A stretch of 34,173 bases of DNA from Dehalococcoidia bacterium. GTDB lineage: Bacteria > Chloroflexota > Dehalococcoidia > Tepidiformales > Tepidiformaceae. The DNA lies in assembly GCA_020432105.1 (NCBI GenBank), contig JAGQGZ010000010.1, forward strand, positions 1-34,173, given 5' to 3'. The notes below the pieces were generated by a model. That model was not told where the DNA came from. It worked only from the letters and a program-made list of their open reading frames with translations, and did no database searches. Below, piece after piece: positions 24,785 through 28,149 of this stretch (the first letter of the stretch is position 1; each line of letters opens with the position of its first letter). A program made the position numbers and the translations under genes.

Positions 24785-24822
24785 CATCGTGGGGGTGATG
24801 GCTGGGCCACTACCCCACGATG
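24785..24822. terminator. Terminator-like hairpin between convergent genes
   Basis: CATCGTGGGG (24785-24794) pairs perfectly with CCCCACGATG (24813-24822), and TGG/CCA pairs extend the stem inward. The right arm lies within the last codons of leuS, whose stop is 24810-24812. No good T-run follows on either strand, so it may be a weak bidirectional terminator or an mRNA 3'-end-stabilising hairpin. Confidence 0.5.
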
Positions 24823-27254
24823 TTGATCAGCTTTCCAGCCACGTAGATCACCTTTTTGGGGCTCCTTCCACCGAGGAACTCGCTGACGCGGGAGAGAGCA
24901 AGCACCTGATCCGTTACCGCTGCCTCAGACGCGTCCGCTGCCACAAAGAGGCGATCTCTCACCTTTCCGTTGACCTGTACGGCAATCTCCACACCCTCTT
25001 CCTGAACGTATGCCTCCACGAACTCAGGCCAGGACTGCGTGTGGACGCTGAAGGGCCGCCCCGATCGTTCCCACAATTCCTCAGCGATATGCGGGGCAAG
25101 CGGCGCCATAAGCAGCAGCATCGCCTCGATCGATTCCTCCCAACCCATTCGATCTACCGCACCTTCATCACGCTGTTTCGCGATTGCCGTGGAGAACTCC
25201 ATCAACCGTGCGATTAGCGTGTTCCAGCGAAGTGCTTCGATGTCCCCCGTAACCGCATGGATAGCGGTATGAGTAGTTTTGCGTAGTTCCGCCCGCGACA
25301 TTTCGTCATCGGAGTAGCGCGGCTCTTCGGTCACAAGCGACCACACACGGTTGAGCCAGCGGACGATTCCCTGCATACCGGTCGGGTTATATGGGCCCCC
25401 CTGGTCCCAGGGCCCGATGAACATGATCTGGCAGCGCAGAGCATCGGCACCCCACCGGTCGACCTGTTCGTCCGGCGCGACCACGTTTCCCCGGCTCTTG
25501 GACATCCTGTTTCCATCAGGCCCGAGGATCACGCCCTGGTTGAAAAGCCTGGTCATCGGCTCATCCTGATCAACCAGTCCCATATCCCGGGCAGCCTTCC
25601 AGAAGAACCGCACGTAGAGGAGGTGCATTACGGCGTGTTCGGCGCCGCCCGTGTACAGGTCCACCGGGAACCAGTAGTCCGCCGCCTCCTTACTGAATGG
25701 GGCGATCGCGTTGTTCGGATCGGCATACCGCATTTCGTACCAGCTCGAGCACACGAAGGTATCCATCGTGTCCGTCTCGCGGCGGGCCGGCGACTCACAT
25801 TGTGGACACGGCACGTTTACCCACGATTCCACCTCCGTCAACGGTGACCTGCCGGTGGGCTCGAAGGTCACGTGTTCGGGGAGAACCACGGGAAGCTGAT
25901 CTTCGGGAACCGGAACAATGCCGCACTCGGAGCAGTGCACCATGGGTATTGGTGCACCCCAGTAGCGCTGCCGCGAGATGAGCCAGTCACGAAGTCGATA
26001 GTTGACGGTGCCTTCGCCGGCTCCCGTTCGCTCTGCGATTTCGATGGCCCGCTGGACGCCTCCATCCACCGGTGTGCCATCCAGCTCACCCGAGTGGATG
26101 TAGACGTCGCCTGCGGTGTACGCCGCTTCGAGCTCGCGCTCGTGGTCGACTCCGGGGGCCGTGAAAACGGGAGTGACCGCGAGCCCGTATTTCCGAGCGA
26201 ACTCGAAGTCACGCTCATCGTGTGCCGGGACCGCCATGATCGCCCCGGTCCCGTACGTCACAAGCACGTAGTCGGCGATCCACACCGGTACGGGCTCCCC
26301 TGTGAACGGGTTGGTGGCATAACCCCCCGTGAATACGCCCGTCTTCTCCCGTTCGGTCGAAAGCCGCTCGATCTCCGTCGCTTTCGCCGTTCGGCCAATG
26401 TAGGCCTCAACTTCCGCGCGCTGGGCATCGGTGGTCAGTCCGGCCACGAGCGGGTGCTCAGGTGCCAGCACCATAAACGTCGCTCCATATACCGTGTCCG
26501 GCCGTGTCGTGAAGACGGTGATAGTCTCCTCACCTCCACCTTCAGACGGCACCGGGAAATGGAGGAGAGCGCCCTCCGAACGCCCGATCCAGTTCGTCTG
26601 CATGACCTTGATTCGCTCCGGCCAGTCGATGCCGTCGAATCGCAGCAATTCCTCTGCGTACTCCGTAATTCGGAAGAACCACTGCGTGAGGAAGCGCCGC
26701 TCAACCACGTCATCGCTCCGCTCACACTTACCATCGACAACCTGCTCGTTTGCCAGGACCGTGTTGCAACCCGGGCACCAATTGGCCGCTGCTTCGGCGC
26801 GGTAGGCCAGCCCTTTCTCGTAGAGCTTCAGGAACCACCATTGCGTCCAGCGATAGAATTCCGGGTCGCTGGTGATGACTTCGCGCGACCAGTCGAAACT
26901 CGTACCCATGCGCCGCAATTGGCCACGCATGCGGTCGATATTGCTGTACGTCCACTCCCGCGGGTCGATTCCCCGCTTGATGGCTGCGTTTTCGGCGGGC
27001 AATCCAAAACTATCGAAACCCATGGGGAAGAGCACGTTGTAGCCCTGCATGCGCCTGTAGCGGGCGGCCGCATCGCTCGGCGCCATGGGATACCAGTGGC
27101 CGGTATGGATATCACCCGACGGATAGGGAAACATCGTGAGGGCGTACCACTTGGGCCGGGACTCGTCGAAATCGACGGCCCGGTAAATCTGCTCGTCTTC
27201 CCAGCGTTTCTGCCACTTCTCTTCAATAACTGCGGGGTCGTAGCGATCGTTCAT
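24810..27254 (-). CDS. leuS: Leucyl-tRNA synthetase
   Basis: An 814-residue class I synthetase of the bacterial type. The HIGH-like motif is FPYPSGDIHTGHWYPM (H50 and H53, the second position being Thr). The CP1 editing domain contains FTTRPDTVYGATFMVLAPEHP, for clearing mischarged tRNA. A Cys pair (WCPGC) and CPQCESP suggest zinc sites. The KMSKS loop is RMSKSRGNVV. The C-terminal domain ends VNGKVRDRLFVAADASEAAV and the family's short tail. The ATG at 27254 has only a purine-rich GAGAAGCGAG before it. Upstream are a terminator and a possible Leu-rich leader peptide, so expression may depend on leucine supply. Confidence 0.96.
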   Translation of the reverse strand: MNDRYDPAVIEEKWQKRWEDEQIYRAVDFDESRPKWYALTMFPYPSGDIHTGHWYPMAPSDAAARYRRMQGYNVLFPMGFDSFGLPAENAAIKRGIDPREWTYSNIDRMRGQLRRMGTSFDWSREVITSDPEFYRWTQWWFLKLYEKGLAYRAEAAANWCPGCNTVLANEQVVDGKCERSDDVVERRFLTQWFFRITEYAEELLRFDGIDWPERIKVMQTNWIGRSEGALLHFPVPSEGGGEETITVFTTRPDTVYGATFMVLAPEHPLVAGLTTDAQRAEVEAYIGRTAKATEIERLSTEREKTGVFTGGYATNPFTGEPVPVWIADYVLVTYGTGAIMAVPAHDERDFEFARKYGLAVTPVFTAPGVDHERELEAAYTAGDVYIHSGELDGTPVDGGVQRAIEIAERTGAGEGTVNYRLRDWLISRQRYWGAPIPMVHCSECGIVPVPEDQLPVVLPEHVTFEPTGRSPLTEVESWVNVPCPQCESPARRETDTMDTFVCSSWYEMRYADPNNAIAPFSKEAADYWFPVDLYTGGAEHAVMHLLYVRFFWKAARDMGLVDQDEPMTRLFNQGVILGPDGNRMSKSRGNVVAPDEQVDRWGADALRCQIMFIGPWDQGGPYNPTGMQGIVRWLNRVWSLVTEEPRYSDDEMSRAELRKTTHTAIHAVTGDIEALRWNTLIARLMEFSTAIAKQRDEGAVDRMGWEESIEAMLLLMAPLAPHIAEELWERSGRPFSVHTQSWPEFVEAYVQEEGVEIAVQVNGKVRDRLFVAADASEAAVTDQVLALSRVSEFLGGRSPKKVIYVAGKLINIVG

Positions 27255-27328: not shown

Positions 27329-27360
27329 AAAAGCCCCGCCGAGCCTAGAAGCCGCGGGGC
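27329..27360 (-). terminator. Intrinsic terminator / candidate attenuator in the leuS leader
   Basis: On the minus strand GCCCCGC (27354-27360) pairs with GCGGGGC (27333-27339) across a 14-base loop and is followed by TTTT (27329-27332). It lies 75 bases before the leuS ATG. The loop contains the stop codon of the putative leader peptide. It could instead simply end the transcript of the gene at 27501-28055. Confidence 0.75.
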
Positions 27361-27410
27361 CGCATAAGTGCGAGTTCGAGGTAGGGCACAGGCCGTTGGG
27401 CCCGGCCCAT
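27345..27410 (-). CDS. Putative leucine-containing leader peptide of leuS
   Basis: A 21-codon frame on the minus strand, ATG at 27410 to TAG at 27345-27347. The C-terminal part reads VPYLELALMRPRGF. The three Leu codons (CTC, CTC, CTT) within five residues should all be read by one tRNA-Leu (anticodon GAG). A ribosome stalled on them would cover the first arm of the terminator, while one that finishes and leaves would let it form. No Shine-Dalgarno is seen before the ATG or an in-frame GTG (27389). Three Leu in five is suggestive, not decisive; the location is what makes it persuasive. Confidence 0.5.
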   Translation of the reverse strand: MGRAQRPVPYLELALMRPRGF

Positions 27411-27461
27411 CTGGCGACGCCGAACGCTACACGAGGCGGTATTTCGGGGGTCGATAGCACA

Positions 27462-27492
27462 CCGCATGTGAAGAGTATGCCATCACATGCGG
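27462..27492. promoter_or_regulatory. Perfect 10-bp inverted repeat upstream of leuS
   Basis: CCGCATGTGA (27462-27471) and TCACATGCGG (27483-27492) are exact inverted repeats with an 11-base spacer. They overlap the possible leuS -10 at 27474-27479. The spacing does not fit a Crp site (which needs six bases between GTGA and TCAC). It may be an operator or, if transcribed, a 10-bp RNA hairpin at the start of the leader. Confidence 0.6.
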
Positions 27493-27504
27493 GGAAACGG
27501 TCAA
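27474..27504 (-). promoter_or_regulatory. Possible leuS promoter
   Basis: On the minus strand TTGACC (27499-27504) overlaps the stop of the upstream gene, and CATACT (27474-27479) follows after 19 bases. The -35 is good and the -10 is imperfect. Transcription would begin near 27467, giving a leader of about 210 bases. Confidence 0.4.
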
Positions 27505-28055
27505 TCCGGACGGTAGTGTGCGACGAACAGGGTTTCCCACTCTCGAGGCTCGCTGCATTCAGAGCAGGTGAGATACCAGACCCACATTTCGTCTGGCTCT
27601 CGGCCGTATTTCTCCTTCGCCTGCTCCTTCGTCTCCCTCATCAGCCCCTTCATCGCCCCGAAATGAGCCGGTAGCAGGCGGGTCCAGGCAAATCCCCCGG
27701 GCATCTCGATGCCTGGATGTGCCCCATCTGTTTCGACCTCAAGCAGGACCGGCCGCCGGAGACGCCCCTCACCAAGCAGCAACATCGCATCCTCGGGTAT
27801 CACGGCGCCTGCCGCCTCCGCCCTCTTGCGCAACTTCCCCCTGATCGACTGGTAGCCGACGGGAACCCCGGCAACAGCCGGGAGCGAACCCCGGATGAAC
27901 TGGATGTCGCTCCAGTCACTCTCGACTTCGTGCCAATCTTCGGCATCCAGGTGCGGGCATTCGCAGAGGGGCTCGGACGGCGCCGGGTCGGGCGTCTTCG
28001 GCCGGGTGTCACCGTCCACGCGCACACGGCGGCGGGAGGATTGCTCGTCGCTCAT
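27501..28055 (-). CDS. Hypothetical protein with paired cysteines
   Basis: A 184-residue protein. A charged, disordered N-terminus (MSDEQSSRRRVRVDGDTRPK) is followed by CECPHLDAEDWHEVESDWSD, a Leu/Gly-rich middle (SIRGKLRKRAEAAGAVIPED and MLLLGEGRLRRPVLLEVE), and a C-terminal WVWYLTCSECSEPREWETLF. The CxCPH and CSEC elements could bind a metal together. I do not recognise the family. The ATG at 28055 has TAACCT seven bases upstream and no Shine-Dalgarno, so it is probably leaderless. It is divergent from the acyl-CoA dehydrogenase gene. Confidence 0.7.
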   Translation of the reverse strand: MSDEQSSRRRVRVDGDTRPKTPDPAPSEPLCECPHLDAEDWHEVESDWSDIQFIRGSLPAVAGVPVGYQSIRGKLRKRAEAAGAVIPEDAMLLLGEGRLRRPVLLEVETDGAHPGIEMPGGFAWTRLLPAHFGAMKGLMRETKEQAKEKYGREPDEMWVWYLTCSECSEPREWETLFVAHYRPD

Positions 28056-28062
28056 CAACGAG

Positions 28063-28068
28063 AGGTTA
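28063..28068 (-). promoter_or_regulatory. -10 element of the gene at 27501-28055 (leaderless)
   Basis: TAACCT on the minus strand ends seven bases before the ATG at 28055. No convincing -35 is seen. Confidence 0.4.
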
Positions 28069-28149
28069 CACAGGCCATGCCGTTCGTGGCTGCAATCCGT
28101 CGGCGAACTTGCCATACTCTCCGCACCATCGGACCGAGGGAGTCACCCC

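Follow-up and report, generated by a model that had tools for sequence, protein, structure and literature searches.

A predicted leucine-responsive leader-peptide attenuator at leuS in Tepidiformaceae and a second family of Dehalococcoidia

The leuS gene of a Dehalococcoidia bacterium of the family Tepidiformaceae is preceded by a short open reading frame whose leucine codons run into a GC-rich hairpin. Our comparison of this leader with the leuS leaders of relatives suggests that it is a leucine-responsive, ribosome-mediated attenuator of leuS, a reading to which we give a probability of about 0.78. The window, by which we mean the whole 34,173-nucleotide stretch of DNA analysed, carries the following features at this locus.

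24810–27254, minus strand: leuS, leucine–tRNA ligase, the putatively regulated gene (TIGR00396, 964 bits)
27329–27332, minus strand: TTTT, a short U-tract after the hairpin, not conserved in relatives
27333–27360, minus strand: GC-rich hairpin overlapping the 3′ end of the ORF, with covariation
27345–27467, minus strand: leader ORF, likely 40 codons (MRCAIDPRNTASCSVRRRQMGRAQRPVPYLELALMRPRGF, then a stop), its frame kept in 57 loci of two families
27366–27380, minus strand: putative leucine control codons CTC GAA CTC GCA CTT
27474–27504, minus strand: predicted promoter, weak in the window, with a similar pair at the corresponding position of most relatives
27501–28115, minus strand, as leuS: upstream gene of the Bact_hydrolase family (PF20603)

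The leader lies inside the 246-bp gap between leuS and the Bact_hydrolase gene. The initial annotation of this DNA had described a leucine-rich frame of 21 codons running into a GC-rich hairpin upstream of leuS. We found 21 sense codons from ATG 27410 to TAG 27345 on the minus strand (MGRAQRPVPYLELALMRPRGF, then a stop), and this frame (27345–27410) is the 3′ part of a 40-codon frame that opens at ATG 27467. The ORF ends L-E-L-A-L-M-R-P-R-G-F-stop as it enters the hairpin. Its leucine codons are CTC (27380–27378), CTC (27374–27372) and CTT (27368–27366), the last of which is near-invariant in relatives and lies 5 nt from the conserved stem core (27360). The arms GCCCCGC (27360–27354) and GCGGGGC (27339–27333) hold the stop codon TAG (27347–27345) in their loop, and the TTTT that follows (27332–27329) is separated from the leuS ATG at 27254 by 74 bases, where 75 had been given for a hairpin and U-tract that are otherwise as annotated. 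At 0 mismatches the hairpin pattern had a single match in the 3.1-Mb genome, at leuS, and with the recurrence of frame, codons and stem at leuS of relatives this exceeds what chance would give. Folding of the whole leader was only slightly better than that of shuffles (z -1.5), so the argument depends on comparing relatives. A simple terminator scan of the window missed the leuS hairpin because fewer than 5 of the 8 tail bases are T, and an Rfam search with E up to 10 returned nothing credible on the leuS strand.

We fetched leuS loci of the window's own GTDB family, Tepidiformaceae. The element precedes leuS in 34 of the 36 genomes with leuS that were examined; two genomes (G013 and G007) have leuS without it, and two more (G004 and G009) gave no leuS match. 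Of the two element-less genes (L014 in G013 and L037 in G007), one has another GC-rich hairpin and the other follows its upstream gene almost directly. When a covariance model (R1) was run against 393 genomes of the class, strong matches were found only in Tepidiformaceae, in 34 of 38 genomes and at leuS, and a pattern scan of 84,980 species genomes gave 25 matches. Upstream regions in the family share a near-invariant hairpin, GGCCCCGCGGCGCNTAGCCGGCGGGGC, whose loop contains a stop codon (TAG, or TGA in L005); the frame leading into it reads ...L-x-L-x-x-P-R-G-x-stop. Of the cells in the stem, 95.9% pair; its covariation score is 0.178, versus at most 0.071 when it is slid. The leader stays with leuS while the upstream neighbour changes. 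Comparison of the sequences shows a conserved frame, leucine codons and spacing, covariation in the stem, a predicted promoter and linkage to leuS. The alignment proposed in the initial annotation was to look for leucine codons, frame and terminator changing together while the rest drifts, and hairpin, frame and leucine codons do co-occur at the leuS genes of relatives while the flanks drift.

The same design was found in a second Dehalococcoidia family, where 23 of 38 leuS upstream regions carry it. Their last codons, CTC-GTC/GCC-CTT-(ACC)-TAG, abut a hairpin that reads GGCGGCGTCGC...GCGACGTCGCC or a variant of it, both arms changing together. This hairpin is unrelated in sequence to that of Tepidiformaceae, yet the distance from the last leucine codon to the start of the stem core is exactly 5 nt in each family. 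Most members of the second family have the stop codon at the edge of the stem; in genus g19 of that family it is in the loop, as in Tepidiformaceae. One leader of the second family has six consecutive leucine codons (CTG CTT CTG CTC CTC CTC). Those members without the leader belong to low-GC genera and two others, one locus (L088) being doubtful. Inspection of about 55 other genomes of the class, outside the two families, revealed no L-x-L leader; two of them have a T-box at leuS (L046 in G040; in G058 the core, seen by eye).

Of 57 loci across both families, 55 have CTT as the last leucine codon and 52 have leucine at codon -2, counts that are not independent events given the kinship among the compared sequences. 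Within leuS itself CTT makes up 7.4% and 1.7% of leucine codons in the two families. The last 8 positions contain 163 leucine codons in the frame of the ORF, compared with 47 and 21 when the two alternative frames are read, and majority frequency is 0.86–0.92 across L-x-L versus 0.44–0.47 in the flanks. The Tepidiformaceae alignment was anchored by the hairpin and not by a codon; in the second family the anchor was CTN plus the hairpin, which partly selects for leucine identity there but not for the third base. Judged by this conservation, the leader ORF is probably translated and rich in the cognate codon.

The predicted promoter points to the likelier start of the ORF. In the window a -35 element, TTGACC (27504–27499), is followed with 19-nt spacing by a -10, CATACT (27479–27474), or with 16-nt spacing by an alternative -10, TGGCAT (27482–27477); by itself this promoter scores weakly (p about 0.13 versus shuffles). 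Most relatives have at the same place a TGAC/TTGAC...TANNAT or GATACT pair spaced by 16–18 nt. In the window CATACT is followed by CTTCAC and then ATG 27467, 6 nt after the -10. An ATG or GTG 4–14 nt past the best -10 is present in 44 loci, and in 40 of the 44 the first one is in frame; a further 13 loci have none at that distance, and some of them use a longer leader. These positions lead us to regard the leader ORF as leaderless, or almost so, in most cases. Because of the position of the predicted promoter, the start in the window is probably ATG 27467 and not 27410, so that the 21-codon frame stands but as part of a likely 40-codon ORF. A transcription start downstream of the hairpin had been named as evidence against attenuation. 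The predicted promoter falls upstream of the hairpin, which speaks against a hairpin that merely terminates the upstream gene's transcript, and promoter-like scores are weaker between hairpin and leuS than upstream of the ORF.

A perfect 10-bp inverted repeat, CCGCATGTGA/TCACATGCGG, surrounds the predicted -10 in the window (27462–27492). It starts 8 nt past the stop of the Bact_hydrolase gene and may be the terminator of that gene or an operator; by eye, no such repeat was seen in relatives.

We propose a transcription start at the leader ATG or a few nucleotides ahead of it, so that a ribosome would load at the 5′ end and read a short peptide whose last leucine codon, CTT, lies 5 nt from the GC-rich hairpin. 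When charged tRNA-Leu is short, the ribosome would wait with CTT in its A site and cover the base of the stem, keeping the hairpin open and allowing transcription to proceed into leuS. When Leu-tRNA is plentiful the ribosome would reach the stop codon and depart, the hairpin would close and expression would fall. What we infer is that the leader is translated, that ribosomes stall on it, in which direction leuS responds, and that transcription ends at the closed hairpin.

We modelled this geometry with the usual ribosome footprint, assumed to reach 13 nt from the first A-site base. With a ribosome at CTT, Tepidiformaceae hairpins retain on average 5.0 of 9.9 native pairs and -6.3 of -19.4 kcal/mol; those of the second family retain 7.4 of 12.3 pairs. 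What is lost is the base of the stem. A ribosome waiting at codon -2 leaves the stem whole. The initial annotation had a ribosome waiting for charged tRNA-Leu sit on the first arm, which agrees with the model for the last leucine codon but not for the earlier ones, from which the stem is untouched. These values fit the invariant position of CTT and a starvation-on response. In E. coli a terminator 5 nt past a translated stop codon is blocked by a normal ribosome (PMC4824070), and thus, with plentiful leucine, readthrough might occur in those second-family leaders whose TAG sits at the edge of the stem.

Of the proposed steps, termination at the hairpin is less certain. The leuS tails of Tepidiformaceae average 2.0 T of 8, with 4 of 8 in the window, compared with 4.5 of 8 in 18 T-box terminators of the family and 2.8 of 8 in 14 strong hairpins between convergent genes of one genome (G012). 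By inspection the second-family tails have almost no U-tract, and the U-tract is largely confined to the window's species. We rejected the U-tract as proof of a terminator, since the leuS tails are normal against the G012 hairpins (2.8) but not against the T-box terminators (4.5). The hairpin that had been annotated as a terminator is therefore conserved, and TTTT follows it in the window, but the U-tract is not conserved in relatives. We infer that the closed hairpin ends transcription intrinsically in the window's species; that intrinsic termination is the output conserved among relatives is uncertain. The U-poor tails of relatives leave room for Rho-dependent or other output, and there the output is possibly Rho-assisted or otherwise.

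The same leucine sensor could act through Rho-dependent termination, the hairpin pausing polymerase once the ribosome leaves and Rho loading on the C-rich stretch beyond; a ribosome held at CTT would shield that stretch, a TnaC-like logic. The U-poor tails agree with this, a rho gene is present, and the post-hairpin region in Tepidiformaceae has 45% C and 23% G versus 36% and 33% in upstream control regions of one relative. The C-rich downstream stretch together with rho makes this a serious rival. However, the excess of C over G is moderate, with 11% of control regions reaching the mean, it is weaker in the second family (41% and 30%), and the window itself carries TTTT; we consider Rho-dependent output rather unlikely, at odds of about one against three. 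Control could instead be exerted on translation or mRNA stability, the hairpin or leader translation affecting how accessible the leuS start is or how the transcript decays, and not termination. Although U-poor tails would suit such control, and pyrimidine-rich stretches pair with the leuS Shine-Dalgarno sequence in some folds, pairing to the leuS start is not conserved and the stretch between CTT and leuS ranges in length from about 83 to 177 nt, which makes this improbable.

In a classical three-part attenuator the leuS hairpin would be the 1:2 hairpin, a second downstream hairpin the terminator and the freed 3′ arm the antiterminator. As in trpL, the stop codon falls between the two arms, here in the loop; many loci have a second hairpin further downstream, and the 3′ arm can pair with it in L012, L018 and L036. 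However, this pairing is not conserved, the second hairpin has no U-tract after it, Tepidiforma-type members such as L006 have about 50 nt left in which it was not seen, and the 3′ arm of genus g12 has no downstream complement; we regard this arrangement as improbable too. When we folded loci with and without a ribosome at CTT, the pairing of an antiterminator and second hairpin was not conserved, and we rejected that model; as no antiterminator is conserved in folds across loci, the earlier proposal that no separate one is needed is supported. Pairing of the leucine-codon region with the 3′ arm (CTCGCC/GGCGGG) was also rejected: it is possible in some members, but the codons between the leucine codons vary. 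Finally, the hairpin could be a plain terminator of the upstream gene and the frame accidental, given a same-strand upstream gene across a 246-bp gap. That gene, however, is followed, 8 nt past its stop codon, by a 10-bp inverted repeat of its own, upstream neighbours differ while the element remains with leuS, and promoter, in-frame start and leucine codons are all conserved, so we judge this very improbable.

T-box riboswitches sense uncharged tRNA and control synthetase genes. Like the T-box, the leuS leader would sense tRNA charging, but the proposed sensor at leuS is the translating ribosome. The annotation had seen no T-box at leuS, and our RF00230 and Rfam searches of the window likewise found none upstream of the gene. 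Three T-boxes occur elsewhere in the window's genome, and thus T-box and leader-peptide control would coexist in it. By eye, from translations, L001 precedes a TrpB2-like gene, L002 a gene to which we gave no name and L003 an ileS-like gene.

The E. coli pyrBI attenuator has one terminator, which is blocked by a ribosome on its leader ORF, and no antiterminator. That attenuator senses UTP through polymerase speed, and the outcome is decided by how close a moving ribosome is rather than by a stall. The leuS leader is similar in setting a ribosome on an ORF against a single hairpin without an antiterminator, and unlike it in the proposed sensing of an amino acid by a stall (pyrBI is discussed in PMC4824070). 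The closest likeness in design is to leuS of Streptomyces lividans, for which a leaderless LeuL2 leader, MRAVRLLLSEPR and a stop, followed by a hairpin and U-stretch, has been predicted (PMC8079986); classical attenuators are also predicted at leuS of S. coelicolor and S. avermitilis (PMC1262725). Both are predicted to be short, leaderless leader peptides with leucine codons before leuS and a hairpin after, a likeness of architecture alone, taken from the description in PMC8079986. However, LeuL2 has a U-stretch and a predicted antiterminator, whereas the Dehalococcoidia leader, in another phylum, has a U-poor tail, no conserved antiterminator and a single hairpin that begins 5 nt past a fixed CTT and overlaps either the ORF or the stop codon. 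Actinobacterial ilvB leaders likewise have a short ORF that contains codons for branched-chain amino acids and overlaps or adjoins a terminator hairpin (PMC1262725; M. tuberculosis, PMC13236596), but they serve a biosynthetic operon and have poly-U, and an antiterminator is proposed in M. tuberculosis (PMC13236596). In the LEU element of actinobacterial leuA a run of leucine codons pairs with the gene's Shine-Dalgarno sequence in a pseudoknot; no such pairing was found at leuS in folds modelled without pseudoknots. Within our partial coverage of the literature on Chloroflexota we found no report of such a leuS leader; leader-peptide control of leuS is apparently undescribed for this phylum, its principle being known from Streptomyces.

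Other conserved leader ORFs were observed at further genes of Tepidiformaceae. Before citramalate synthase, 12 of 30 loci (L250, L251, L253–L255, L257–L263) have an ORF of the type ...PRQSRGAAI-stop, with endings PR[QPTS]SRGxAI-stop, a hairpin inside the frame and an isoleucine codon (ATT/ATC) as last sense codon. That of the window's genome (L230/L263) ends RGAGI-stop, and in L230 a GTG start lies 6 nt after TACCAT. Before leuA, 9 of 27 loci (L224, L225, L229, L281–L283, L286, L288, L293; one match of another form excluded) have ...APDSPGRxL-stop, with endings APDSPGR[AV]L-stop, the in-frame hairpin GCCCCGGACTCACCGGGGC and a final sense codon CTT; genus g12 (L226, L227) has a related form, APVSPGR.... 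No leader was seen in pheS upstream regions. We tentatively suggest, as a possibility somewhat short of even odds, that leuS, leuA and citramalate synthase of Tepidiformaceae share minimal one-hairpin sensors, in which a leaderless mini-ORF holds a cognate codon at a fixed distance from an in-frame hairpin and ribosome position alone acts, without an antiterminator or a conserved U-tract.

If the attenuator reading of leuS is true, ribosome-mediated control of a synthetase gene would be extended to Chloroflexota. The T-box at leuS in neighbouring families would then point to one tRNA-charging sensor replacing another, and the fixed distance from CTT to the stem, in two families with unrelated hairpins, would represent a minimal design whose geometry is directly testable.
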